DNA from: Pseudomonas yamanorum
GTDB taxonomy: Bacteria; Pseudomonadota; Gammaproteobacteria; Pseudomonadales; Pseudomonadaceae
Assembly (NCBI RefSeq): GCF_900105735.1
Contig: NZ_LT629793.1
Span: forward strand, 682,001 to 746,000
Direction: 5' to 3'
Length of the DNA: 64,000 bases
In this document: piece by piece, positions 2,450 to 16,146 of the stretch
Numbering within the stretch: position 1 is the stretch's first letter
Layout: each line of letters begins with the position of its first letter
Translations under genes and position numbers: made by a program
The notes under the pieces: generated by a model
Seen by the model: only the letters and a program-made list of their open reading frames with translations
What the model was told of the DNA's origin: nothing
Databases searched by the model: none

Positions 2450-3052
2450 ATGAATATCCTCCATGTCAGTGCCAGCCCTCGCGGGCCAGCGTCAGAAAGC
2501 AACGCCCTCTCCCTCAAGATCATTGAATGCCTGCGCCAGCGGAACCCGGCCGCCGAGGTGATCCAGCGCGGCATCGCCGGGAACGCCCTGGCACCGTTGG
2601 ACGAGCCTTATGCGACGTCCCAGCAGTCCCTCATGGATGTCTCGTCCGAAGGTTCGATGGCCCAGTCCGAGCGGCTTGTGCGGGAATTGGAGATGGCCGA
2701 CATTGTGGTGATCGCCACCCCCATGCATAACTACTCGGTACCCGCAGCCCTCAAGCTATGGCTTGATCATATTGCGCGGGTACGCCGCACCTTCGATATC
2801 TCGGCCCAGGGCAAGATCGGCCTGTTGCAGGACCGCCCGGTGTTTGTCGCCATCGCCTCGGGCGGACGGTTTTCCGGGGAGCGTGCGCATCAGCCGGATT
2901 TCCTGACGCCGTACCTGAAAACCCTACTCGGCATGATCGGCCTGCATGACGTGACCTTCTTCACCGTTGAAGGCACCGCTTCACGCCCGGAGGCACTGGC
3001 CCAGACGCGCCGCCAGACCGACCAGGCGCTGCACGACTATTTCGCCACCTGA
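2450..3052 (+). CDS. azoR: FMN-dependent NADH:quinone oxidoreductase / azoreductase
   Basis: 200 residues with the flavodoxin-like AzoR fold. The N-terminal phosphate-binding segment is LHVSASPRGPASES, the flavin-contacting loop is TPMHNYSVPAALKLWLDH, and the substrate loop carries ASGGRFSGE. AzoR enzymes are cytoplasmic homodimers that reduce quinones and azo compounds by two-electron transfer from NAD(P)H. The start has AGGAAG ten bases upstream. The MocR regulator begins 17 bases after the stop, so the two are very likely one transcript. The divergent AhpD-like gene suggests a shared role in electrophile or oxidative stress. Confidence 0.9.
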   Translation: MNILHVSASPRGPASESNALSLKIIECLRQRNPAAEVIQRGIAGNALAPLDEPYATSQQSLMDVSSEGSMAQSERLVRELEMADIVVIATPMHNYSVPAALKLWLDHIARVRRTFDISAQGKIGLLQDRPVFVAIASGGRFSGERAHQPDFLTPYLKTLLGMIGLHDVTFFTVEGTASRPEALAQTRRQTDQALHDYFAT

Positions 3053-3069
3053 ACAGGACCCGCCGCCGG

Positions 3070-4482
3070 ATGAGCACCTCGATCAAGGCCTTTTCACCGC
3101 TGGACGCCGGCGCTGCCGAGCCGATTTACCGGCAACTTTACTGGCGCTTCCGCAGCGCGATTGCCGAAGGTTTGCTCAAACCGGGGGAACGCATACCCGC
3201 AGCCCGGGCCCTGGCCAAGGAACTTGGGCTGGCCAGAGGCACCATCGACACAACGTACTCGCTGCTGGCGGCCGAAGGTTATATCCAGGCCCGTGGCCAG
3301 GCCGGCACCGTGGTGGCGGAAGGGATCAAGTCCAGCCTGCCGGAACGCCCCATGACGGCCAGCGACCACAATGCCGTCCGGCACAAGGCCGCCGTGTTGC
3401 CGTTTCAAATGGGCCTGCCGGCGCTGGATGCGTTCCCGCGCAAGATCTGGTCGAAAATCGCCGCCCGTTGCGTGCGGGCCACCCAGGTCGCCGACATGGC
3501 CAACCCCTGCGTGTTCGGCCTGCACTCGCTGCGCACGGCGATTGCCAGCTACTTGCAGGTTGCCCGGGGTATTCACTGCTCGCCGGCACAAGTCTTCGTC
3601 ACCTCGGGCTACCGCAACACGCTGGGGCTGATCGCCCACGCACTGCTGGAACCGGGCGATCGGGTGCTGGTGGAGGACCCGGGCTACCTGTTCACCCGGC
3701 CATTGCTGGATTACCTGAATATCAAGGCCATACCGGTACCCGTGGATCAGGACGGCATGCAGGTGTCCCGAGCCGTGCAACAGGGCAAAGGCGCCCGCGC
3801 CGTGGTGGTCACGCCGGCCCATCAAAGCCCGCTGTGTGTCTCGCTGTCCTTGCCCAGGCGCCTGGAACTGCTGGATTGGGCGAGCCGCCAGCAGGCCTGG
3901 ATCGTCGAGGACGACTATGACGGCGAATACCGTTACGTCAGCCGCCCACTGCCGGCCCTCAAGAGTCTGGACCGCGTCGGCCGGGTGCTCTATGCCGGGA
4001 CTTTCAGCAAAGTGTTGTTTCCCGGCATCCGCCTCGCATATCTGGTGGTGCCTGCGGCTCAAGTGGCACGCTTCGAACACGTCAGCCAGACCTTCCTCGG
4101 TGGTTGCCCGGAACTGACCCCGGCGATCGTCGCGACGTTTATGGCCGAAGGGCATTTTGCGCGGCATATCCAACGCATGCGCAAACTCTACGGCGAGCGT
4201 CGGGAAGCCACGGCCAGGGGCCTGCGCAAAGCGCTGGGCGAGCGTATTTCGATTGATGCCCAACCGGGCGGGATGCATTTGATCCTGCGACTCAACGCGC
4301 ACCAGTCCGACCGCCTGTGCGTGGAGCGACTGGCACAGGCCGGCATTTATGCCGAAGCCTTGAGCGACTGGAATATTCAGGGCCAGACCGGCCCCGGCCT
4401 GCTGCTGGGCTTTGCCAATATCGAATCGGAGACCGTCGCCGAGGTCCTTGGAAAACGCATCCTGGATGCACTCATGGCCTGA
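3070..4482 (+). CDS. MocR-type GntR/aminotransferase-fold transcriptional regulator
   Basis: 470 residues. The N-terminal 80 or so form a GntR winged helix (PIYRQLYWRFRSAI, then GERIPAARALAKELGLARGT), joined to a fold-type I aminotransferase domain. The PLP-binding lysine is residue 314 in YAGTFSKVLFPGIRLAY, and the cofactor aspartate is in VEDDYDGEYRY. MocR regulators bind PLP as an external or internal aldimine and often control vitamin B6, GABA or stress genes. It lies 17 bases downstream of azoR, so azoR, the LOG gene or the divergent AhpD-like gene are the obvious targets. The target assignment is inference. Confidence 0.9.
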   Translation: MSTSIKAFSPLDAGAAEPIYRQLYWRFRSAIAEGLLKPGERIPAARALAKELGLARGTIDTTYSLLAAEGYIQARGQAGTVVAEGIKSSLPERPMTASDHNAVRHKAAVLPFQMGLPALDAFPRKIWSKIAARCVRATQVADMANPCVFGLHSLRTAIASYLQVARGIHCSPAQVFVTSGYRNTLGLIAHALLEPGDRVLVEDPGYLFTRPLLDYLNIKAIPVPVDQDGMQVSRAVQQGKGARAVVVTPAHQSPLCVSLSLPRRLELLDWASRQQAWIVEDDYDGEYRYVSRPLPALKSLDRVGRVLYAGTFSKVLFPGIRLAYLVVPAAQVARFEHVSQTFLGGCPELTPAIVATFMAEGHFARHIQRMRKLYGERREATARGLRKALGERISIDAQPGGMHLILRLNAHQSDRLCVERLAQAGIYAEALSDWNIQGQTGPGLLLGFANIESETVAEVLGKRILDALMA

Positions 4483-5214: not shown

Positions 5215-7704
5215 TTACCACTGATACGTCGCGCTGGCCTGCACGGTGCGCTGTGAGCCATACCAGCACCACGAGTAGGAATAGCAGGACGCGACGTACT
5301 CTTTATTCGCCAGATTGGTGGCGTTCACCGCCAGGCGCAGGTTGTCACCCTGGCGATTGATGTGCGGGATGTCGTAGTGCACCGCTGCATCGAACAAGGT
5401 GTAGCCCGGTACCTTCAAGGTGTTGGCGGTATCGCCCCATGACGAACCGACATACCGCGCACCAGCCCCCACGCCGAAGCCCTTCAGCGTGCCGTCGTGC
5501 AGGGTGTAATCCGCCCAGGCCGATGCGGTATGACGCGGTACGGCATAGGTGGTAGTGCCCTCGGCAGCCACGGCCGGGCCGACGCCGATGTCACTGATGG
5601 GCGCATAGCGCACGGTGTTGTTGGACTTGCTGATGCGGTTATCCAGGTAGGCATAGGCCGCCGTGATATCCAGGTTGTCGTTCAGGCTGGCCTTGCCTTC
5701 GAGTTCAAACCCTCGGGATTGCACTTCACCGTCCTGGATCTGGCAGCGCGAGCCGTTGCACAGGTGGGAAGCGTCCGGGTCCAGTGTCGGCACGTTGGTC
5801 TGGCGCAGGTCGAAGATGGCCGCCGTGATGAAGCTGTTGCTGCCCGGCGGCTGGTACTTGATGCCGATTTCGGTCTGCTTGCCTTCAGTCGGTTGGAACG
5901 TTGAGCCGCCATAGCCCGTGCCGGATTGCGGCTGGAAGGATTCCGAGTAGCTGACATACGGCGCCAAGCCATTATCGAACAGATAGACCAGGCCCAGGCG
6001 GCCGGTGAAGGCTTTGCTGTCCTGGCTGGATTTGGTCTTCTTCTGGGTCGTCATGGCCAGGGTGCTGTTGTCGGTGCTGGCCCAGTCATAACGCCCGCCC
6101 ATCAACAGCACCCATTTGTCCCACTTCATCTGCTCTTGCAAGTACACGCCGGTTTGCTCGCTGCGCGAGGTGGCGTCGCTGGTGTAGGCCGGTACCGGCA
6201 CGGCCGCGCCGTAGACCGGGTCGAAAATATCCAGCGTAGGCCCTGCCGTGTACACGCCACTGCCCGACTTGGTATCGGTGCTGGTGTTCTGGTAGTCGGC
6301 GCCCATCAGCACGGTGTGCTGCAGCGGGCCGGTGTCGAATTTGGCCTGCAACTGGTTGTCGAGGGCATAGGCGTCGATGTTCACGTCGCTGGCGATGGTC
6401 GAGCGGCGGATGGTGCGGTAATCGCTCTCCAGGTAGTTGCTGTAGAGGCTGCGGTATTGCCCTTCGCTGCGCAGATAGCGGGCATTCTGACGCACGGTCC
6501 AGACATCGTTGAAGTGATGCTCGAAGGCGTAGCCGATGGAGTAATACTCGCGGTCACTCTTCTCGAAGCTTTTCTCGCCGTCGTAGAAATCCACGTCGAT
6601 CTTGCGCCCGGTTGGGCTGTGCATCACCGAGCCCCAAGCCGGCATTGAACCGTAGGACGCGCCTTTGGGATCCTTCTGGAAATGCCCAAGCAAGGTCAGC
6701 GACGTGTTGTCGTCCGGGCGCCAGGTGAAGGCGGTGGACAGGGATTGGCGACGGGTTTCAGTGTGGTCGATCTGGCCGTCGGCATCGTCAAAAAGGCCGG
6801 CGACACGGTAGGAATACACGCCTTGATCGTCCAGCGGGCCGCTCAAGTCAAAGGTGGTGCGCTTCTTGTTGAAGGTGCCGTACTCGACGCCGACTTCATG
6901 GAACGGCGTATCCAGCGGGCGCTTGCTGACCATGTTGATCACGCCGCTGGGGGTGCCCTGCCCGTACAGCACCGACGCCGGCCCACGCAGCACTTCGACG
7001 CGCTCCAGGTCGAAGGCGTCTTTTTGCGGCAAGGCATCCCGGCTCGAGGGCATGCGCAGGCCATCGAGGTAGGTCGCCGGGGCGAAGCCACGGATGGTCA
7101 ACTGGTCGAGGCGTGACGCGGTGGAGCCTCGGGTTTCCGGGATCACGGCGGCGCTGTAGCGCAGGATCTGGTTAAGGCTCTCGGCGTTCTGCGCGCGCAT
7201 CTGGTCTTTGGTGACCACGGAGATCGACTGTGGGGTTTCGATCAGCGCGGTGTCGGTCTTGGTGCCCGACAGGCTGCGGGTGGCCACGTAACCCGACACC
7301 GGGCCGGTGGGGTTTTCCGACTGATACGCACCGCTGATGGTGGTGGCCTGCAACTCCATGGCGCCGTCGGTGTGCGGGATGGCTTCGAGGCGGTAGCGGT
7401 CGTCGGCAATCTTCAGGGCTTGCAAGCCGCTGCCAGCCAACAATTGGGCCAGGGCGGCGTCGGTGCTGTGCTGCCCGTTCAGGCCATTGCTGCGTTTGCC
7501 CCGAGTCAGGCTCGGATCAAAGGCCAATACCAGGCCCGCCTGTTCGGCGAGGCTGTTGAGGGCCTGGCTCAGGTCACCGGCCGGAATGTAAAACGCGGCG
7601 CTTTCAGCCGCGAAGGACGCTTGAACGGTCAGCAGGGGTACGGCGGCAAAAGCCATCGCCACTGAAAGGGCCAGTGGCTGTAAGGGACGAGCAAGGCGCG
7701 ACAT
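5215..7704 (-). CDS. TonB-dependent ferric-siderophore receptor with signalling domain (FhuA/FoxA-like)
   Basis: 829 residues. A Sec signal peptide (about 1-32) is followed by a secretin/TonB short N-terminal domain (about 36-108, FYIPAGDLSQALNSLAEQAG), the mark of a receptor that signals to an anti-sigma factor. The plug follows (IETPQSISVVT, then RGPASVLYGQGTPSGVINM), then a beta-barrel ending in a C-terminal tryptophan. The barrel end resembles FhuA/FoxA hydroxamate receptors, including the paired cysteines in VASCYSYSWCWYGSQRT. It takes up an iron-siderophore complex across the outer membrane using TonB energy. It is the last gene of the sigma/anti-sigma/receptor set, 89 bases after the anti-sigma gene. 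The exact siderophore, probably a hydroxamate, is inference. Confidence 0.92.
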   Translation of the reverse strand: MSRLARPLQPLALSVAMAFAAVPLLTVQASFAAESAAFYIPAGDLSQALNSLAEQAGLVLAFDPSLTRGKRSNGLNGQHSTDAALAQLLAGSGLQALKIADDRYRLEAIPHTDGAMELQATTISGAYQSENPTGPVSGYVATRSLSGTKTDTALIETPQSISVVTKDQMRAQNAESLNQILRYSAAVIPETRGSTASRLDQLTIRGFAPATYLDGLRMPSSRDALPQKDAFDLERVEVLRGPASVLYGQGTPSGVINMVSKRPLDTPFHEVGVEYGTFNKKRTTFDLSGPLDDQGVYSYRVAGLFDDADGQIDHTETRRQSLSTAFTWRPDDNTSLTLLGHFQKDPKGASYGSMPAWGSVMHSPTGRKIDVDFYDGEKSFEKSDREYYSIGYAFEHHFNDVWTVRQNARYLRSEGQYRSLYSNYLESDYRTIRRSTIASDVNIDAYALDNQLQAKFDTGPLQHTVLMGADYQNTSTDTKSGSGVYTAGPTLDIFDPVYGAAVPVPAYTSDATSRSEQTGVYLQEQMKWDKWVLLMGGRYDWASTDNSTLAMTTQKKTKSSQDSKAFTGRLGLVYLFDNGLAPYVSYSESFQPQSGTGYGGSTFQPTEGKQTEIGIKYQPPGSNSFITAAIFDLRQTNVPTLDPDASHLCNGSRCQIQDGEVQSRGFELEGKASLNDNLDITAAYAYLDNRISKSNNTVRYAPISDIGVGPAVAAEGTTTYAVPRHTASAWADYTLHDGTLKGFGVGAGARYVGSSWGDTANTLKVPGYTLFDAAVHYDIPHINRQGDNLRLAVNATNLANKEYVASCYSYSWCWYGSQRTVQASATYQW

Positions 7705-7793: not shown

Positions 7794-8738
7794 TTACCGA
7801 GGCTTGATCACCACCACCAAATCGGTGAAGTACTCCACCTTGATCGGCAGGTTATCCGCCAGTGAAGCCAGGGCCGCGCGGGTGTCGTCGAGCTTGAATA
7901 CTCCCGACACGCGCATCCCTTGCAGTGCCTGCGGATCAAAGCGCACCAGCCCGTGGCGGTAACCAGCGAGGGTTTGCAGCACCTCGCTCAGGGGTTGGTC
8001 GTCGACCTTGAGCAGGCCACGGGTCCAGGCGTCCGGGTCGGCATTGCCGATGGGTTGCGGGTCGCTGGCGTGTCCGTCCTTGAGTGTGGACTTCTGCCCT
8101 GCCGGCACTTTCACGTCGCCTGCACTGTTGCCTTTGACGGCCACGGTGGACTCGATCACGGTGACTACGGTCGAGCCGTTCTCGGCCTTGCGCACCAGGA
8201 ACCGCGTGCCCAACGCCGTGGCCGTGCCCTGGTCGGTATGCACCACGAACGGCCGTTGCGCGTCCTTGGCCACCTCGACCCACATCTCGCCCTGCAACAG
8301 TTCGATCACCCGTTGGTGGCCGTCGAACTTCACGTCCAGGGCAGAGTTGCTGTTGAGCTGCACCTGGCTGCCGTCGGTCAGTGCCACCTGACGCCGTTCG
8401 CCAACGCTGGTGCGTTGGTCGGCCATCCATACCGGCAGCCGCTCAATCCCGGCCCAACCGCACAGCAATACACCCAACAGCGCAACGGCCTGGGTACCAC
8501 GGGCGGCAAACCTTGGTTTTTGCGGGGCAAACGCGCGGTTCAGGGCAAGGCGCGCCGGAGCGGCGGGCAATGCGTCGAGGCTGCCCCATAGGCTGCGCAT
8601 CCGTTCGATTGCGACAGCATGCCGTGGGTCGGCCTGGCACCAAGCATCGAATGCGGCACGGTCGGCTTCAGTCACGTGATCGTCGTGCAACAACGTCAGC
8701 CAACGGGCGGCTTCACTGATGATCTGCTCGGAACTCAC
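7794..8738 (-). CDS. FecR-family anti-sigma factor / sigma regulator
   Basis: 314 residues in the usual FecR layout. An N-terminal cytoplasmic domain (about 1-80, with ARWLTLLHDDHVTEADRAAFDAW) is followed by one transmembrane segment near residues 80-96 and a periplasmic FecR domain (VALTDGSQVQLNSNSALDV) reaching a C-terminal STN-like region. It passes the occupancy signal from the receptor's N-terminal domain to the cognate sigma factor. Its GTG start overlaps the stop of the sigma gene in a GTGA arrangement, indicating translational coupling and equal expression with the sigma factor. Confidence 0.92.
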   Translation of the reverse strand: MSSEQIISEAARWLTLLHDDHVTEADRAAFDAWCQADPRHAVAIERMRSLWGSLDALPAAPARLALNRAFAPQKPRFAARGTQAVALLGVLLCGWAGIERLPVWMADQRTSVGERRQVALTDGSQVQLNSNSALDVKFDGHQRVIELLQGEMWVEVAKDAQRPFVVHTDQGTATALGTRFLVRKAENGSTVVTVIESTVAVKGNSAGDVKVPAGQKSTLKDGHASDPQPIGNADPDAWTRGLLKVDDQPLSEVLQTLAGYRHGLVRFDPQALQGMRVSGVFKLDDTRAALASLADNLPIKVEYFTDLVVVIKPR

Positions 8739-9280
8739 GACAGCGGGTCCGCCCCGTGCAGGGTGTGATAGCAGTGCACCAGCGCGCTGGAGATGTAGTT
8801 CTTCACGGTGCTGGGTGACACCTGAAGTTGTGCGGCGATTTCGCTGTAGGTCAGCCCGTCGAGGCGGCTGAGCAGAAAGGCTTCGCGGGCCTTGGCGGGC
8901 AAGCCGGTGAGCATGTCGGCGATTCGTTCCAGGGCCTGGAGTGCCACATGAATTGCCGCCGGATCCGGCATACCGGCGTCCTCGCTCTGAATCGCCAGGG
9001 CTTCCATGTAGGCCTTCTCGATCCGCCGCCGACGCGCGCCATCAATCATCAAGCGCCCCGCCGTCGTTGCCAGGAAAGCCCGGGGTTCCTTGATGGTGTG
9101 GGGTTCGGCCAGCAGCAGGATGCGGATAAACGCGTCGTGGGCCAGGTCGGCGGCATGTTGTGAGCAGCCGAGTTTCTTGCGCAGCCAACCGTGCAACCAG
9201 GAATGGTGGTCGCTGTAGAGGGCGGTGAGGGTCTGCTGGCGACGGGCTGTATCAGCCTTGGCTACAGGAAAGTCATGCAT
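8735..9280 (-). CDS. ECF sigma factor, FecI/FpvI-like
   Basis: About 181 residues. Region 2 is visible as LYSDHHSWLHGWLRKKLGCSQHAADLAHDAFIRIL and region 4 as LDGLTYSEIAAQLQVSPSTVKNYI, a helix-turn-helix that reads the -35 element. The iron-starvation ECF group directs RNA polymerase to a cognate receptor promoter when released by its FecR partner. The ATG at MHDFPV was preferred over the in-frame TTG seven codons earlier. I could not find a convincing Fur box in the 230 bases upstream, although this class is normally Fur-repressed, so regulation is unproven from sequence. Confidence 0.9.
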   Translation of the reverse strand: MHDFPVAKADTARRQQTLTALYSDHHSWLHGWLRKKLGCSQHAADLAHDAFIRILLLAEPHTIKEPRAFLATTAGRLMIDGARRRRIEKAYMEALAIQSEDAGMPDPAAIHVALQALERIADMLTGLPAKAREAFLLSRLDGLTYSEIAAQLQVSPSTVKNYISSALVHCYHTLHGADPLS

Positions 9281-9537
9281 GCGCAAAAATTTCTCAAACA
9301 AGAAAGATTACCAATTGCGCAAACGATGACAGTAAAACGGAGGGGGAGCAAGGGGCTCGCCGATCGAAGCCGTCACGGTGATGGGTGGTTAACGGGATGC
9401 AGGTAGAGGGCAACTACCTTTTAACTGAAGTATTAACACTGCACTTAGTTAGAAACAGCAAAAGTCGACAGGCACTTGCGTACCTGCCAACTTAATGGAC
9501 GCATGACAATTAATGACGAACGTCTAAAGTGCGACGG

Positions 9538-10383
9538 TTACTTGCAGCCAATCCTCTGCGGAAGTTGCCCTTGCTTCGACTTAAGTGCAGTTTGTACCGC
9601 TTGGGGCAACTCATTCCAGAATGTCAGCCCGGAACGCTGTTCAATCTGTTCGACCGTCGCGCGGTAATCACAGAAGTTCGCACCCTTAGGAGTTTCCTGA
9701 TTCATGATGAACGAGGCATAAAGACCGTCTTGCGGCGACTTGCCCACGGAAACAATCTTCCAGTAGCCGCTGGGAATCGTGTGGACCTTGTTGGTCCCCG
9801 GCAAGGTGCCGATAAATTTCTCATACAGCGGGCCAGTCATCACATACACCTCATCCACCGCCGCGTCCTGGCTCAGGTTGCGCTCCTGATCCTCCAGGCG
9901 TGCCCAAGGGCCCTGGTTCAAATCGGACTTTTGCGGGGTGATGTTGGACAGGTAATTGAGGGTCTGCCAATCGGAGACGCCCGCCATCGACGCCAGGTTC
10001 GCCTGGTGTCCACGGTCGACCTTGAGCGCCACGTTGGCACCGTTATAGTCAACAGGGTCAAGGGTTTCACCCGCCGGAATCGCCGGGTCCGTCTGCCAGT
10101 TACGCGGGCGCCCGCTGGCCGGTGTGGACTTGGTGATCCGGTAAGCCACCCAGTTGGCGAACTTGGTCGACGCATTGTTATTGAGGCTGTAGGCCTGGCG
10201 ATTCAACGTCAGCGGCCCACCGCCCGAAGGGCAGCCCTGGGAACAATTATCGACGGTGACGGCCTGTTCGAGCGGCGCCTGGACGGCGCGCTCCGGTGCC
10301 TGTGAAGGCGGGGTGCTGATACAGCCCGCCATCAGCGGCACCCACAACAACGCGACGTATTTGAACAATGCTTTCCTTTGCAT
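9538..10383 (-). CDS. Predicted lipoprotein DNA/RNA non-specific endonuclease (NUC family)
   Basis: 281 residues with a lipobox LMAGC (cysteine 21), so it should be exported and membrane-anchored. The beta-beta-alpha-metal nuclease core is present: DRGHQANLAS (general-base histidine 126) and the metal-binding asparagine region SNITPQKSDLNQGPWARLED (Asn147, Asn156). These match the DRGH...N...NQxxWxxLE pattern of Serratia-type nucleases. Cysteines at 47, 51 and the C-terminus may form disulfides. Plausible roles are nucleic-acid scavenging outside the cytoplasm or damage to a competitor; no immunity gene is adjacent. GGAG lies just upstream of the start. It is monocistronic, with a 420-base intergenic region upstream. 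Confidence 0.85.
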   Translation of the reverse strand: MQRKALFKYVALLWVPLMAGCISTPPSQAPERAVQAPLEQAVTVDNCSQGCPSGGGPLTLNRQAYSLNNNASTKFANWVAYRITKSTPASGRPRNWQTDPAIPAGETLDPVDYNGANVALKVDRGHQANLASMAGVSDWQTLNYLSNITPQKSDLNQGPWARLEDQERNLSQDAAVDEVYVMTGPLYEKFIGTLPGTNKVHTIPSGYWKIVSVGKSPQDGLYASFIMNQETPKGANFCDYRATVEQIEQRSGLTFWNELPQAVQTALKSKQGQLPQRIGCK

Positions 10384-10698
10384 GGTAATACTCCATTTAC
10401 AGCAGATTAATTAAGTTTAAGGCGATAAAACAGGCGCAACGGGTCCCGACAGCGCAAAAGCCACTTCGTGATGAGATGACTACGCTATCAAGTTGATTGC
10501 TGACAGTTGGATAACTGTATTTGCGCGTAACGCGACATTCCATGTGCGTACACACTTAATTACCCACGCCAGTGGCGCAAGCAACTAACTGCTCATGAAA
10601 AATCATCTTTCGGTTGAGCAGGCTTTATCTTATACACGTAATTGTTACAAAAAAACCAGCGTTAAAATCAAAAAAATCAGCCCGTAAACCCGATCCAA
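10384..10698. other. Intergenic region, no gene seen
   Basis: AT-rich stretch upstream of the nuclease gene holding its promoter region. No open frame with coding character, tRNA or recognisable small RNA was found. A run of A and T around 10620-10680 separates it from the REPIN-like element. Confidence 0.5.
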
Positions 10699-10787
10699 TG
10701 TGAGAGCCGGGCTTGCCCGCGATGCACGCGACTCGGTGTTTCAGTTACACCGAGGTGATGCTATCGCAGGCAAGCCAGCTCCCACAG
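10699..10787. repeat. REPIN-like element (inverted REP pair)
   Basis: Two REP-type sequences face each other: the left end has TGTGAGAGCCGGGCTTGCC and the right end GGCAAGCCAGCTCCCACA, about 89 bp overall. A palindrome CTCGGTGT / ACACCGAG lies in the centre. It sits just beyond the stop codon of the second TonB receptor. It is the most divergent of the four copies in this window. Confidence 0.75.
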
Positions 10788-10806
10788 TTGATCTTTGCTT
10801 GGCTGA

Positions 10807-12954
10807 TTAACGCCAGCTCCAGGAAACCCCGGTGTACACGCCCATGCCATCTCCCGGCGTGGACCGCGCTACGTCCAGCCCCTTGTCGTCATAACCCGGC
10901 GTGACCGTATTGGCGTAGCGCTGGTTGGTCAGGTTGCGCAGGTCGACCCAGGCTTGCCAGTCGTGCATCGGCGCGTCATACCCGACCGTCGCGCCGAGCA
11001 GCGTGTAGGCCGCCGCGTAGTAGGAATTGGCGTAGTCCACCGCCACCCGCGACGAATGCTCGCCGTTGAGGCTGGTGTAGAAACCGCTGGGATGGCTGTA
11101 GCGCAATTGCGCCTGGTAGTAGTGCTTGGGGATGCCGGGCAAGGTGTTGTCGCCGAAGCGGTCGTCGTTGCGGTAGTGGAAGTCGCTGTAGGTGTAGGCC
11201 TGGCGCAGGGCTAACTGGCCGGTGCGGCCGCCGTCCCACAGCGGGCTGATCAGGCTCAGTTCCACGCCTTGGTGCACCGTGGGGCTGGCGTTGGATTCGG
11301 CGATGATTGCAGAGGTGGTGGAGGTCGCGGCTTGGGTTTCGACGCTGAGCAGTTCGTGGCGCACCTCGGAACGGTACAGCGCCAGGTCCCATTGGCCGAA
11401 CCATTCTTCACCGCGGCCGCCGATTTCCAGGGTGGTTGCAGTCTGGTTTTTCAGCTTGACGCCTTCGCGTTGCAACCCACTCGCCGGGCCGCTGTTGGCC
11501 GGGAAATACTTGTTGGAACCCCAGATCATCGACCATGCATGGGGCGGCTCAACCGAGCGGCTCAGGTTGCCATACACCTGCAGTTGCGGGCTGAAGTCAT
11601 AACGCAAGCCAACCCGTGGCGCGTAATCCCAATCGTGCTGGCTGACCGGTGTGTGGGTTTCCGGATAGCTGACTTCGGTTTCACGGCGGGTGTAGATCGC
11701 CGCCAACCCGGTGGTCAGCCAAAGGTCCGGCACCAACTCCAGGTCGTTGCCGATATGCAGCACGGTGTCGGAACCCAGGTAGCTGTAATCGCGGGTCTTG
11801 GTGCCGGGTGCATAAATGGCGGTATTGCCGGTCGGGATCCGCACGAATTCCGAGCCGCCGTTGTTAGGCATCGCCTGAGTCGTGCGCAAACCGATAGTGG
11901 TCTTGCTGTCGCGCCCGAACAACGTGTCCTGGCGGATGTAGTTCAGAGTGCCGCTGACGTCGGTGTAGGCGACCTTGAGACGGTTGGTGCCTTCACGCAG
12001 GTCCATCGGATAGTCGTGATACGCCAGCCCGACCTCGACCCGGGCGCTGTCGTCCAGGCGCAGGGTGGTTTTGTTGGCGATCCAGGTCGAGCCCGGTTGC
12101 AGGCGCTTGGAGTCGCGCGTCACGTTGAGGGCGGCGGCGGCGCGTGGGTCGTGGCTGATCTGGTCGCGGGTCAGCTTGCCGGGGGAGTCGTTGTCGGTTT
12201 CGCGGTAGCGGAAGTAGAAGCGGGTTTCCAGGTCGGGGTTGAAGCGGTAGCCAAAGTTGGCCGCCATGCCCTTGCCGCTGCCGGCGCTGTGGTTCTGGAA
12301 ACCGTCGTAGTGCGAATCGGTGAGGCTGATGTAGTAGTCGGCATCCCCCAGCACCTGCCCCGAACTGATTTCCCGTTGGGCGTAGCCATGGCTGCCGGCT
12401 TCGTAGCGCACTTGCAGCTTGGGGGCGTCGTAGCCGGTGTGGGTGACGTAGTTGACCGCACCGCCCAGGGCCAATGCGCCCTGGTCAAAACCATTGGCGC
12501 CGCGCAGCACTTCAACGCGGCTGAGCCACAACGGGTCCTTGAGTTCGTAGGGCGTGCCGCCCGGGCCGGTCAGCGGCAGGCCGTCGAAGGTTTCGTACAG
12601 GCCGGACGCGTGGGCGCCGGGGCCCCGGTTGATGCCCGAACCACGAATGGAAAGCTTCACCCCTTCGTTGTTCGCGGCCTTGGCGTACACGCCTGCCTGG
12701 TACTTGAACACGTCCTCGTTGGTGCTCACCCGCCCCTGGTCGACGCTGCCCATGTCGATGTAGTTGGTGGCGCCGGGAACGCTCTTGAGCTGGACCTGGG
12801 CCAGTTCATCGGCGCTGAGTTCAGCGCTGCTGACTTCGACGGGAGCCAGTTGCAGCGTGTCGTCGGCCTGGGTGACAGGGCTGAAGCTCAGGGCGGCGCC
12901 AAAGCCCAGCAAGGGCCAGGCTTTTCGTGCGGGGAACGGAAACGCGGGGGGCAT
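10807..12954 (-). CDS. TonB-dependent receptor, substrate unknown
   Basis: About 715 residues from the start MPPAFPF. The longer frame adds 59 residues of non-family sequence, and AAGGA lies upstream of the chosen ATG. A signal peptide ends near PVTQAD. The TonB-box/plug region contains VSTNEDVFKYQAGVYAK, SIRGSGINRGPGAHASGLY and VEVLRGANGFDQGALALGG, followed by a long beta-barrel ending in WSWR. There is no secretin/TonB N-terminal domain, so it does not signal through a FecR protein. Divergent from a small ORF and an XRE-cupin regulator that probably controls it. Iron complexes, other metals or cofactors are all possible ligands. Confidence 0.88.
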   Translation of the reverse strand: MPPAFPFPARKAWPLLGFGAALSFSPVTQADDTLQLAPVEVSSAELSADELAQVQLKSVPGATNYIDMGSVDQGRVSTNEDVFKYQAGVYAKAANNEGVKLSIRGSGINRGPGAHASGLYETFDGLPLTGPGGTPYELKDPLWLSRVEVLRGANGFDQGALALGGAVNYVTHTGYDAPKLQVRYEAGSHGYAQREISSGQVLGDADYYISLTDSHYDGFQNHSAGSGKGMAANFGYRFNPDLETRFYFRYRETDNDSPGKLTRDQISHDPRAAAALNVTRDSKRLQPGSTWIANKTTLRLDDSARVEVGLAYHDYPMDLREGTNRLKVAYTDVSGTLNYIRQDTLFGRDSKTTIGLRTTQAMPNNGGSEFVRIPTGNTAIYAPGTKTRDYSYLGSDTVLHIGNDLELVPDLWLTTGLAAIYTRRETEVSYPETHTPVSQHDWDYAPRVGLRYDFSPQLQVYGNLSRSVEPPHAWSMIWGSNKYFPANSGPASGLQREGVKLKNQTATTLEIGGRGEEWFGQWDLALYRSEVRHELLSVETQAATSTTSAIIAESNASPTVHQGVELSLISPLWDGGRTGQLALRQAYTYSDFHYRNDDRFGDNTLPGIPKHYYQAQLRYSHPSGFYTSLNGEHSSRVAVDYANSYYAAAYTLLGATVGYDAPMHDWQAWVDLRNLTNQRYANTVTPGYDDKGLDVARSTPGDGMGVYTGVSWSWR

Positions 12955-13171
12955 GGGGGGTAAATCCTTGGAATTCGTTTTTGCGACGGGCTCGGTCCGG
13001 CACAAGGTCTGTGGTGGGAAGCCTGTGAAGCCCGGCGGGTCACCACTGATGGACGTACAGGCCCCAATCGGCGTTAAGTCCGAAATCGAATTACCAAATG
13101 CAAACTCAGTATTTATGGAAATAAGCGCCACGGATTACTGTAGGGCCATTGAGTCCCCAGAGATTTACGTC

Positions 13172-13330
13172 ATGCAAACATCCGCCACCGTCATCGATTT
13201 CACCCTCCACCGCAAACGCCGCCAGGCTCGCGCAGCGGCTGAACTGATGTGGGCGATGTACGCGGCACGGGCCGGGGTCGCGGTGTTTACCGCACACGTC
13301 ACCACCTCCAGCGATACCCGCCGGGCGTGA
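13172..13330 (+). CDS. Small basic protein upstream of XRE regulator
   Basis: 52 residues beginning MQTSATVIDF, with an arginine-rich segment (HRKRRQARAA) followed by a helical alanine-rich stretch (AAELMWAMYAARAGVAVF). It is the 3' part of a longer frame; the upstream part has no coding character and overlaps the receptor's leader region. The XRE gene starts four bases after its stop, and that gene's GAGG ribosome binding site lies across the stop, suggesting translational coupling. Function unknown. It could be a genuine small protein or a leader ORF. Confidence 0.5.
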   Translation: MQTSATVIDFTLHRKRRQARAAAELMWAMYAARAGVAVFTAHVTTSSDTRRA

Positions 13331-13334
13331 GGCA

Positions 13335-13973
13335 ATGAATTTCCTGCACGCGCTTCCCGAAGTGCCCGACCTCCCCTCCAAACCCAAAGACTGCAACAGC
13401 GGCGACGATGACGCCATCGGCCAGTGCGTCGCGCAGAACCTGCAACGCCTGCGCAGTAAACGCTACCTGTCGCTGGACGCCCTGGCGCGCAATTGCGGCG
13501 TGAGCCGGGCGATGCTGGCGCAGATTGAATCCGGGCGCAGCGTGCCGTCGATCAAAGTGCTGTGCAAGATTGCCAAAGGCTTGAAAGTCTCGGTGGCCGC
13601 CTTCCTGGAAAACCGTGCGTTCGAAGGGGTTGAACTGCTGCCGGCACAACAGAGCAAACGCTTGGTGAGTGCCGACGGCAGTTTCATCAGCCGTGCGCTG
13701 TTTCCCTACGATATGGCACGCCAGTCGGAGTTCTACGAGATACGCCTGAAGGCACTCGGCGAAGAAGTTTCTGAAGGTCACGGGCCGGGGATTCAAGAAA
13801 ATCTGGTTGTGGCCCAGGGCGTGCTGGAAGTCAGCGTCAACGACGAACGCTACCTGCTGTCCACCGGTGATTCGATCCTGTTCTACGCCGACCAGCCCCA
13901 CCGCTATCGAAACCCGGCGGACAGTGAGGCGGTGGCGTTCCTGGTAATCACCTACCCGGAACGCCTGGACTGA
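13335..13973 (+). CDS. XRE-family transcriptional regulator with cupin domain
   Basis: 212 residues. A helix-turn-helix of the XRE/SinR type spans about 33-95 (LARNCGVSRAMLAQIESGRSVPSIKVLCKIAKGL). A C-terminal cupin small-barrel domain spans about 130-205, with the conserved end GDSILFYADQPHRYRNP. In this architecture the cupin senses a small ligand and alters DNA binding. It is coupled to the upstream 52-codon ORF and divergent from the TonB receptor, so that receptor is the likely target. The gene ends at a strong bidirectional hairpin. Confidence 0.88.
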   Translation: MNFLHALPEVPDLPSKPKDCNSGDDDAIGQCVAQNLQRLRSKRYLSLDALARNCGVSRAMLAQIESGRSVPSIKVLCKIAKGLKVSVAAFLENRAFEGVELLPAQQSKRLVSADGSFISRALFPYDMARQSEFYEIRLKALGEEVSEGHGPGIQENLVVAQGVLEVSVNDERYLLSTGDSILFYADQPHRYRNPADSEAVAFLVITYPERLD

Positions 13974-13975
13974 AA

Positions 13976-14008
13976 CGCAAAAAGCCCCGGCACTCGCCGG
14001 GGCTTTCT
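13976..14008. terminator. Bidirectional terminator between XRE gene and Met-rich gene
   Basis: Ten-base-pair stem AAAGCCCCGG / CCGGGGCTTT around CACTCG. On the minus strand the stem runs straight into a TTTTT tract, which suits the Met-rich gene. On the plus strand the tail is CTGGTTTC. Confidence 0.8.
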
Positions 14009-14026: not shown

Positions 14027-14539
14027 TCAGCAGGTGCAGCACATCATCGGCATGCCGTTGCAGCTCATCATCATCGGCATGGCGCAGTCGCTCATCATCT
14101 TCATCATCAGCATGCAGCAGTTGTTCATCATGTCCATGCTCATGCCTGGCATCGGCATCATGGTGCAGGTCATGCAGTCGGCTTCCATCTTGCATTCCAT
14201 GACGCACTTCATCATCGGCATAGGCATGCCCATCGGCATCATCATCGGCATGTTCAGGGTGGACATGCTGTTCATCATCGCCATGCCGTCCTGCGACATG
14301 CACATCATCGACATGTTGGCGCACTGCATCATCATCGGCATGCCGCAGTTCATCATCATCGCCATCATTTCGGCGTTGTTCTTGAACATCGCCATGTCCA
14401 TACCGGCGGCCGGCTTCATGGTGCACATCATGGCCTCGTCGGTCATCGTGCAGGTCATGGTGGCCATCATCATCGGCATACCCATCATCGGCATCATTGG
14501 CATCGCGTTGTTCATTGGCATCTGCATGGCGTTCATCAT
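14027..14539 (-). CDS. Extremely methionine-rich, cysteine-containing protein
   Basis: 170 residues, of which I count 70 methionines (about 41%) and 16 cysteines; no His, Trp, Tyr, Arg or Ile is present. Methionines cluster as MPMMM (four copies) and related runs, and cysteines fall as CC, CxxxC and a terminal CCTC. No signal peptide or transmembrane segment is evident, so it is probably cytoplasmic. A start at MMNAMQMP is supported by GGAG about eight bases upstream; the longer frame adds 36 unrelated residues. Dense soft sulfur ligands suggest binding of Cu(I) or another thiophilic metal, or a sacrificial oxidant sink; this is inference. The opposite-strand open frame over the same bases is a shadow of CAT repeats. 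Confidence 0.7.
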   Translation of the reverse strand: MMNAMQMPMNNAMPMMPMMGMPMMMATMTCTMTDEAMMCTMKPAAGMDMAMFKNNAEMMAMMMNCGMPMMMQCANMSMMCMSQDGMAMMNSMSTLNMPMMMPMGMPMPMMKCVMECKMEADCMTCTMMPMPGMSMDMMNNCCMLMMKMMSDCAMPMMMSCNGMPMMCCTC

Positions 14540-14653
14540 GTTCGAAACTCCGTAATCGACAGGAAATGAGTAAGTTCTGGGGCCGATTCTAGAGATGCGA
14601 CGCAACGGCGCAAGGCTTTGGCCCAGCAGCAGAAATAGACGCTGCATGGGGGT

Positions 14654-14817: not shown

Positions 14818-16146
14818 TCATTCGGCGAAGAAGCGGTTCGCCGGACGCGGCAGTCCGAGGTTTTCCCGCAGGGTAGAGCCTTCGTACTCCCGCCGGAAAA
14901 TCCCGCGTCCCTGTAACTCGGGCACCACCTTGGCGACAAAATCATCAAGCCCGCCGGGCAGCCACGGGAACATGATGTTGAAGCCATCGCTGCCCTCTTC
15001 TTCCAGCCACTGCTGCATCTCATCGGCAATGCTGCGGGCCGTGCCGACAAACGACAAGCCCGCATACCCGCCAAGGCGTTGGGCCAATTGGCGCACCGTC
15101 AACTGCTCGCGGTCAGCCAGCGCCAGTACTCGTTCGCGGGAGCTTTGGCTGGCGTTGGTTTGGGGAATCGCCGGGAGGTATTGGTCGGGATCAAACTTGG
15201 TCGCGTCGGTACCCAGCGCTATCGACAGCGAGGCAATCGCGCTTTCGTAATGCACCAGGCTGTCGAGGTGCGCACGAATCCGCCGCGCGTCTTCCCGCGT
15301 ATCGCCGACCACCACAAACGCCCCGGGCAGAATCTTCAGGTGGTCGGGATGCCGCCCCACCGCCAGCATCCGGCGCTTGATATCCCCATAGAACTTGCGC
15401 CCTTCTTCCAGGGTGCCCGGCGCGACAAAAATCACCTCGGCGGTTTCCGCCGCCAATTGCCGGCCTGGCTCCGAGGCACCGGCCTGCACGATCACCGGCC
15501 AGCCCTGCACTGGCCGCGCAATGTGCAGCGGGCCGCGCACGTTGAGGTAGCGACCGTGATGGTTGAGGGTGTGCAGTTTGTCCGGGTCGAAGTACACGCC
15601 GCTGTCGGCATCGCGGATGAAGGCATCATCGGCCCAACTGTCCCAGAGCCCGGTCACCACATCGTAGAACTCCCGCGCACGGGCGTAACGCTCGTCGTGA
15701 GCGTAGGCCTGTTCCAGGCCGAAATTCTGCGCGGCATCCGGGTTGGCGGTGGTGACGATATTCCAACCCGCGCGACCATTGCTCAAGTGATCCAGGGACG
15801 CAAAGCGACGGGCAATGTGGAACGGTTCGTCGTAGGTGGTCGAGGCCGTGGCCACCAGGCCGATGTGCTCGGTGGCCTGGCTGAGGGCCGACAACAAGGT
15901 GAACGGTTCGAATGACGTGGCGGTGTGGCTGCGCTTCAACGCGTCGATGGGCATGTTGAGCAAGGCCAGGTGGTCGGCCATGAAGAAGGCATCGAAACGT
16001 GCCTTCTCCAGGGTTTGGGCAAAAGCCTTGAGGTGCGTGAAATTGAAATTGGCGTCACGGTAAGCGCCGGGATAGCGCCAGGCGCCGGTGTGGATGCTGA
16101 CCGGGCGCATGAACGCGCCCAGTTTCAGTTGGCGTGGAGTGGTCAT
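14818..16146 (-). CDS. FMN-dependent monooxygenase, NtaA/DszA/SnaA family
   Basis: 442 residues of the bacterial luciferase-like (LLM) class, nitrilotriacetate-monooxygenase subgroup. Diagnostic segments are GAFMRPVSIHTGAWRYP at the start, SNGRAGWNIVTTANPDAAQ, ARPVQGWPVIVQAGASEPGR and the C-terminal DGFNIMFPWLPGGLDDF. Members use FMNH2 from a separate reductase and oxygen to attack organosulfur or aminopolycarboxylate compounds. No flavin reductase gene is adjacent. AGGGG precedes the start. It follows the MarR gene by 74 bases on the same strand, so it is probably in that regulator's operon. Substrate unknown. Confidence 0.9.
   Translation of the reverse strand: MTTPRQLKLGAFMRPVSIHTGAWRYPGAYRDANFNFTHLKAFAQTLEKARFDAFFMADHLALLNMPIDALKRSHTATSFEPFTLLSALSQATEHIGLVATASTTYDEPFHIARRFASLDHLSNGRAGWNIVTTANPDAAQNFGLEQAYAHDERYARAREFYDVVTGLWDSWADDAFIRDADSGVYFDPDKLHTLNHHGRYLNVRGPLHIARPVQGWPVIVQAGASEPGRQLAAETAEVIFVAPGTLEEGRKFYGDIKRRMLAVGRHPDHLKILPGAFVVVGDTREDARRIRAHLDSLVHYESAIASLSIALGTDATKFDPDQYLPAIPQTNASQSSRERVLALADREQLTVRQLAQRLGGYAGLSFVGTARSIADEMQQWLEEEGSDGFNIMFPWLPGGLDDFVAKVVPELQGRGIFRREYEGSTLRENLGLPRPANRFFAE

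Follow-up and report, generated by a model that had tools for sequence, protein, structure and literature searches.

A methionine-rich protein of Pseudomonas paired with a SutR-type XRE-cupin regulator: a possible sulfur reserve

What use would a bacterium have for a small protein built largely of methionine and cysteine? This question is raised by a gene within a window of 64,000 nucleotides (the whole stretch of DNA analysed here) from the 7.09 Mb genome of Pseudomonas yamanorum. Its product comprises 170 residues, of which 70 are methionine and 16 cysteine, and a recount agrees with the first-pass annotation on these figures as well as on position; the gene is on the minus strand. Computed from the composition, sulfur accounts for 14.4% of the weight of the protein and the pI is 4.24. 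As had been claimed, histidine, tryptophan, tyrosine, arginine and isoleucine are all absent by direct count, and the motif MPMMM occurs four times, at residues 21, 67, 97 and 154. In the earlier description of methionine runs alternating with cysteine pairs, "pairs" is a loose term for the cysteines, which stand as CC at two places only (141 and 167). The gene lies among the following features, given in window coordinates.

13172..13330, + strand: small ORF, 52 aa, beginning with a "VIDFxxYRxR"-like motif; 4 nt separate it from the start of the regulator (profile match, conserved position)
13335..13973, + strand: XRE-cupin regulator, 212 aa, SutR/1Y9Q type (Pfam, similarity to SutR and 1Y9Q)
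13981..14006, both strands: bidirectional terminator common to both convergent genes (folding energy)
14027..14539, - strand: Met/Cys-rich protein, 170 aa plus stop (sequence, dN/dS)
14033..14218, - strand: domain 2, residues 108-169, same predicted strand/helix order as domain 1 (AlphaFold2, duplication)
14219..14263, - strand: linker resembling the N-terminal segment, residues 93-107 (pLDDT <50; length variable among homologues)
14264..14479, - strand: domain 1, residues 21-92, predicted strand-strand-helix-strand-strand plus helix (AlphaFold2, block mean pLDDT 76-91; duplicated in domain 2)
14480..14539, - strand: Met-Pro N-terminal segment, residues 1-20, low confidence (pLDDT <50; length variable among homologues)
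14548..14553, - strand: ribosome binding site ACGGAG (sequence)
14586..14591, - strand: -10 element TAGAAT (kept in 93 of 94 distinct upstream regions)
14608..14613, - strand: -35 element TTGCGC, with a 16-nt spacer (spacer kept in 93 of 94 distinct upstream regions)
14818..16146, - strand: NtaA/DmoA-type FMN-dependent monooxygenase, directly upstream of the Met-rich gene and outside the conserved module (NCBIfam TIGR03860, E 2.9e-171)

Whether this reading frame is a gene at all has to be settled before its function is discussed, as the sequence is of low complexity and four Rhizobium records with the full module described below annotate the opposite strand as the gene. The 114 loci yield 94 distinct coding sequences, for which the NG86 estimate of dN/dS (4315 usable of 4371 pairs) has a median of 0.22 in the methionine frame and never exceeds 1, whereas the other five frames give 0.71-1.56 in 1200 sampled pairs. 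At codons other than methionine, variation peaks at the third position (0.185 versus 0.078 and 0.102). The homologue search and conservation check that had been proposed recovered relatives in which 13 of the 16 cysteine and 46 of the 70 methionine columns are at least 95% conserved across the 94 sequences, and the 90 near-full-length matches in Pseudomonas genomes are free of in-frame stops. The gene had also been credited with a ribosome binding site and a terminator of its own, and both are borne out: ACGGAG lies 8 nt before the ATG, and the hairpin folds on both strands, at -33.9 and -30.4 kcal/mol, though it is absent from the output of a consensus scan. Upstream, TAGAAT followed at a 16-nt spacing by a -35 of the form TTGC or TTGT is found in 93 of the 94 distinct regions. 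Clear purifying selection in the Met frame alone, intact matches, a conserved promoter, an AlphaFold2 model with confident blocks in two domains, and the fact that the sole large repeat is an internal duplication leave practically no weight for a spurious frame or a repeat artefact. The Met-rich ORF is a real gene, as the first-pass annotation had supposed, and it is under purifying selection.

The methionine share is held at 37-43% across the 94 distinct coding sequences, while the lack of particular residues is no rule of the family, since histidine occurs in 52, isoleucine in 45 and arginine in 16 of the 94. A single-sequence search retrieved 40 homologues and a single-domain profile 329 relatives; among the 120 matches listed of these 329, every named one is called "hypothetical" or "uncharacterized". 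The genera among the matches listed are Devosia, Chelatococcus, Rhizobium, Bradyrhizobium, Tianweitania, Sorangium and Polyangium, and a Pyrinomonadaceae MAG is present as well. Four subfamilies were compared through 33 relatives, and because leucine, isoleucine, valine, phenylalanine, tryptophan and tyrosine together average 3-11% per subfamily while methionine makes up 25-44% (only 25-30% in the type-B relatives), methionine itself seems to be selected. Within Pseudomonas, the gene was found in 94 of 398 genomes, two of the matches being weak; these two (G284 and G412, E about 5e-4) contain in-frame TAG codons and are probably remnants or chance similarities. In a phylum sample, also of 398 genomes, 8 carried the protein family, two of them outside the taxonomic family of Pseudomonas, and genome searches of those two other taxonomic families found the gene in 1 of the 121 genomes of one and in 10 of the 119 of the other. 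Likeness to Bradyrhizobium and Chelatococcus records suggests that the latter genomes are Alphaproteobacteria.

The protein is internally duplicated, its two halves being 51% identical across 61 aa. In the AlphaFold2 model, strands at residues 24-32 and 37-43, a helix at 49-64 and strands at 69-73 and 76-81 are followed by a similar set, and within the predicted domains methionine stands in for almost all leucine, isoleucine and valine. In a single-domain model, with a mean pLDDT of 65, strands and helix follow one another as they do here. When the two-domain model was compared with the PDB and viral structure libraries, nothing was obtained at E <=0.001 and VIA Z was middling. The sequence has no match above cut-off among PDB sequences, a best Pfam score of 12.8 bits against a cut-off of 29.1, and no NCBIfam family up to E 10. 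Extending the search to 21 A1 members gave weak matches to six Pfam families, each in at most two members and with a best E of 0.0089, and five relatives searched against NCBIfam up to E 1 gave one weak match to an ABC model and otherwise nothing. Matches to FHIPEP (Pfam E 0.043), TusA (Pfam E 0.12) and, in two of the 21 members, DUF5948 (best E 0.0091) were disregarded, since they score well under the cut-off. The motif M-x-K-D, which recalls the MXKDX repeat family associated with the MrpX/BcrX oxidant-sink peptides, occurs once in some single-domain relatives. By inspection, a cleavable signal peptide is not apparent, and the charged start of one is missing because the first lysine or arginine is residue 42. 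The protein is probably cytoplasmic. A description of the family was not found in the open-licence literature searched; in PMC11578231, for example, the phrase "methionine-rich protein" is confined to a reference title. The suggestion that this is an undescribed, probably cytoplasmic protein is supported.

A first indication of function comes from the genes that accompany it. Across 80 named loci (79 titled Pseudomonas, the other "gamma proteobacterium L18"), the neighbours vary with the exception of an XRE-cupin regulator, which is usually the next gene and convergent. Random stretches of 16.5 kb (40 in all, from 20 Pseudomonas genomes that carry the family) served as controls: a SutR seed has matches at 79 of the 80 loci versus none of the 40 stretches, and a PuuR seed matches none of either. 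The single SutR miss (L087) is a contig that ends about 245 nt past the Met-rich gene. Counting the regulator at E <=1e-50 in 398 Pseudomonas genomes, 90 have both genes, 4 the Met-rich gene only, 5 the regulator only and 299 neither; the searches for the two genes are taken to cover the same 398 genomes, given the equal number and the handle range. The two genes are convergent within 1 kb in 87 of the 90 pairs, with a median gap of 74 nt, and in the remaining three they are 1290 nt apart (G060), 6.7 kb apart (G170) or on separate contigs (G074). The Met-rich gene without the regulator is represented by a match at a contig end (G227), by the two weak matches with internal stops (G284 and G412) and by G400, where the regulator is absent from the 11.3 kb read. 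The converse group comprises a regulator with an in-frame stop (G204), an assembly of about 1200 contigs (G294), a partial regulator match (G300) and two regulators of 52-54% identity that are perhaps paralogues (G219 and G265). Broken members also occur among the 90 pairs, namely a Met-rich gene in two pieces (G342) and a second regulator with an in-frame stop (G340); G340 retains its Met-rich gene, which G204 does not have. A search at 40 of 65 available loci for an operator common to the promoter of the Met-rich gene and that of the small ORF and regulator yielded best 18-mers no better than those from shuffled or other-locus partners.

Judged by sequence, the regulator is a SutR/1Y9Q-type XRE-cupin protein, a kind already known. 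Two Pfam domains score above cut-off, HTH_3 at E 5.5e-12 and Cupin_2 at E 5.2e-12, and the protein is 33% identical to E. coli SutR over 177 aa (93 bits), compared with 20% and 33 bits for PuuR. In the PDB, 1Y9Q alone matches it at full length (E 6.3e-26, residues 31-210); SutR matches this entry as well (E 8e-37), and PuuR does so in the HTH alone. SutR (YdcN) and 1Y9Q share both architecture and full-length resemblance with the regulator. The cupin pocket of 1Y9Q has D-methionine bound according to PMC7901475, and this ligand may be a guest from crystallisation. The same source describes Pseudomonas XRE-cupin factors as inhibitors of neighbouring genes, six of the seven factors studied regulating at least one adjacent gene (PMC7901475). 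A role of SutR in sulfur utilisation is stated in the title of Yamamoto 2015, as cited in PMC8464067. The 11 kb read around sutR in E. coli K-12 contain no annotated Met-rich gene. The Met-rich gene is a putative target of the window regulator. An Advenella XRE regulator, tied to propionate and DTDP genes (PMC5373536), was not used for comparison.

A third component is the small ORF, which runs together with the regulator convergently toward the Met-rich gene. A profile seeded with seven members has a match ahead of the regulator at all 88 regulator loci, weakly (E 0.001-0.002) at L189, L197, L199 and L200 and in the later part of the frame only at L040 and L057. None of the 67 homologues of the window's small ORF carries a functional name, and the ORF has no Pfam or NCBIfam family. 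Its relatives hold the same position in Pseudomonas, in Rhizobium and in the two other taxonomic families, where the C-terminal half looks hydrophobic. The Met-rich gene, the XRE-cupin regulator and the small ORF form a three-part module.

This module extends beyond Pseudomonas. At the 11 loci of the two other families, the regulator is convergent at nine and 45-49% identical to that of the window. The stretches read at L195 and L196 have no regulator, and MetI/MetQ-like and Tau/Ssu-like genes are found there, the MetI/MetQ-like genes of L195 adjoining the Met-rich gene. Of 37 Rhizobium plasmid records, five were opened, all of them close relatives; four contain the full module, with an overlapping small ORF and a convergent regulator. 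Within the 14 kb read, each of the five carries msuE, taurine-type ABC genes and genes for an LLM oxidoreductase and a gamma-glutamylcyclotransferase, and tau/ssu-type genes are nearby. In four of these records (L210-L213, about 6988-7490), a gene is annotated on the strand opposite the Met-rich ORF, so that the family is hidden by annotation. The fifth, from Rhizobium lentis (L209, 6998-7555), has a Met-rich frame that ends unlike its relatives and no regulator was found in it, as if the module were decaying together. Near a single-domain relative at L167, an ORF resembling a membrane protein of the YeeE/YedE type was observed at 3001-3276 on the - strand; proteins of that type serve thiosulfate uptake.

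The variable neighbours of the module carry a further signal. E. coli Tau, Ssu and MetI/Q sequences were used as sulfur seeds, with the ABC transporters Liv, Pot, Art and Opp as control seeds. The sulfur seeds match at 30 of the 80 loci versus 2 of the 40 random stretches (p 6.6e-5), a test that is confirmatory and not blind because the seeds were picked after the neighbours had suggested sulfur, while the control seeds match at 14 of 80 versus 6 of 40 (p 0.8). Two groups of loci with shared context (26 and 23 members) dominate the 80-locus sample. With loci grouped by shared neighbours into 24 context groups, and a group taken as positive if at least half of its members match, 12 of the 24 are positive for the sulfur seeds (p 4.6e-5) and 4 for the control seeds; 11 have no sulfur-seed match whatever. 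SsuA and SsuC seeds can match related transporters that are unconnected with sulfur. Directly upstream of the Met-rich gene, SsuA/SsuC/SsuD-like genes occur at L085, L088 and L106 and MetI/MetQ-like genes at L092 and L100; only the SsuA, MetI and NtaA/DmoA representatives among the upstream genes pass the NCBI cut-off. Outside Pseudomonas, sulfur seeds match at 5 of the 11 loci (L190, L195, L196, L202 and L203, with L190 and L202 from one genus). A sulfur seed is absent nearby in 50 of the 80 loci and in 6 of the 11 elsewhere, and by inspection 25 of those 50 have TonB-receptor-, FecR- or ECF-sigma-like neighbours. Genes of these kinds (ECF-sigma-, FecR- and TonB-receptor-like) occur in 14, 23 and 24 of the 80 loci, respectively, and by inspection they also lie in the window at 7794-13131, on the other side of the regulator.

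The reading that we consider best, at a probability of roughly 0.45, is that the Met-rich protein serves as a cytoplasmic reserve of methionine and cysteine under a methionine-type repressor. The two-domain protein, with methionine and cysteine in place of nearly all other hydrophobic residues, would itself be the sulfur store. The SutR/1Y9Q-type repressor next door would sense methionine or a related sulfur metabolite; when sulfur is ample, it would let go of the Met-rich gene and surplus methionine and cysteine would be laid down in the protein, and when sulfur is scarce, the protein would be degraded and both amino acids given back. We infer that the regulator represses the Met-rich gene, that its ligand is methionine-like, and that the protein is abundant and turned over. 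Abundance would be a requirement of any such role, and the same requirement has been raised for a synthetic sulfur-sink peptide with 14 methionines and cysteines (PMC5218467). Several points count against a store: cysteine positions fixed more strictly than bulk storage needs, the many loci with no sulfur seed nearby, the negative operator search, the two pairs with a broken member and the lower methionine share of the type-B relatives. As background, sulfur-starved Rhodococcus is described as avoiding Met/Cys-rich proteins (PMC8557817).

Other uses of so much sulfur have to be weighed against a reserve. The protein might be a sacrificial cytoplasmic sink for oxidants such as HOCl or peroxide, re-reduced by MsrA/B and thioredoxin, with the regulator linking it to thiol status. 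Met-rich sinks do exist (BcrX and MrpX; PMC8315932) and antioxidant defences are also induced by sulfur starvation (PMC12581299); yet linkage to Msr genes is missing, with E. coli MsrP seeds matching at 1 of the 80 loci and MsrA, MsrB and MsrQ seeds at none (at the loci of the other families, MsrB matches at 1 of 11 and MsrP and MsrQ at 0 of 11), a cleavable signal peptide is not apparent by inspection, and the partner is of SutR type and not a known oxidant sensor. The oxidant sink offered by the first-pass annotation hence finds no backing in gene context, and we regard it as unlikely. Its other suggestion, a copper or silver store, fares no better. If the protein stored or buffered Cu(I) or another soft metal in the cytoplasm, its cysteines and methionines serving as ligands in folded domains, this would accord with the conservation of both residues within a compact predicted fold, and the periplasmic Met-rich proteins CopA, PcoC and CopC bind copper (PMC10092412). 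Against this, a CopA seed matches at 2 of the 80 loci versus 0 of the 40 random stretches, CusF, CusB and CusA at none of the 80, CusC at 1 of 80 versus 1 of 40, and all copper seeds at 0 of the 11 loci elsewhere; CusR-like regulators are not enriched over the random stretches (6 of 80 versus 8 of 40), and the constant partner is not of a known metal-sensing type. We rate the metal store as unlikelier still. On chemical grounds, the protein may still be capable of metal binding or oxidant scavenging.

Quite improbable, in our judgement, is a role at the level of translation, by which the 70 ATG codons would draw down Met-tRNA or methionine as a sensor or sink, with no later recovery. The constancy of the methionine share (37-43%) and the 1Y9Q-like regulator would fit such a role, but the gene runs into a terminator with a convergent gene beyond it, so that nothing downstream is open to attenuation, and a folded domain with fixed cysteines would be superfluous.

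Several known systems invite comparison. The Met-rich protein resembles MrpX and BcrX as a very Met-rich small protein with a regulator of its own. MrpX is reportedly periplasmic, going by the title of a 2015 study by Melnyk, and BcrX is described as induced by HOCl and linked both to an MsrPQ-like system and to an ECF sigma factor (PMC8315932); the protein described here differs in its many cysteines, its SutR-type regulator, the lack of Msr linkage and the lack of an apparent signal peptide. The Csp copper storage proteins, likewise Cys-rich and cytoplasmic, are four-helix bundles, in contrast to the Met-dominated strand-strand-helix-strand-strand fold predicted by our model. The sulfur-rich storage albumins of seeds are also proteins used as a store of methionine and cysteine, but they are plant proteins, secreted and disulfide-bonded. 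Sulpeptide 1 is a Met/Cys-rich sulfur sink placed with desulfurisation genes (PMC5218467); it is man-made, with 14 methionines and cysteines and a secretion signal by design, whereas the Met-rich protein is natural, conserved and predicted to fold, with 86. IssA is a microbial protein said to store sulfur, in its case inorganic thioferrate with iron (PMC5524996), while here the sulfur would be that of the protein's own methionine and cysteine.

Bacteria are well known to keep reserves of carbon, nitrogen and phosphate; a protein reserve devoted to assimilated Met/Cys sulfur was not found in the open-licence literature searched. In its widest form, which we hold somewhat more tentatively, the proposal is that a folded Met/Cys polymer may constitute a genetically encoded bacterial sulfur reserve, a counterpart of the nitrogen and phosphate reserve polymers, with a methionine-sensing XRE-cupin switch and an undescribed small protein alongside, spread in soil- and plant-associated proteobacteria. 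Were it an oxidant sink instead, the Met-rich protein would be of the MrpX kind, and even as an oxidant or metal sink, hydrophobic positions filled almost wholly with methionine, together with a SutR/1Y9Q-type regulator, would make a surprising design. If the reserve is real, it would account for a family that numbers 329 proteins or more and for which some annotated records place the gene on the wrong strand, and it would be a natural counterpart of the sulfur sink attempted in desulfurisation engineering (PMC5218467).
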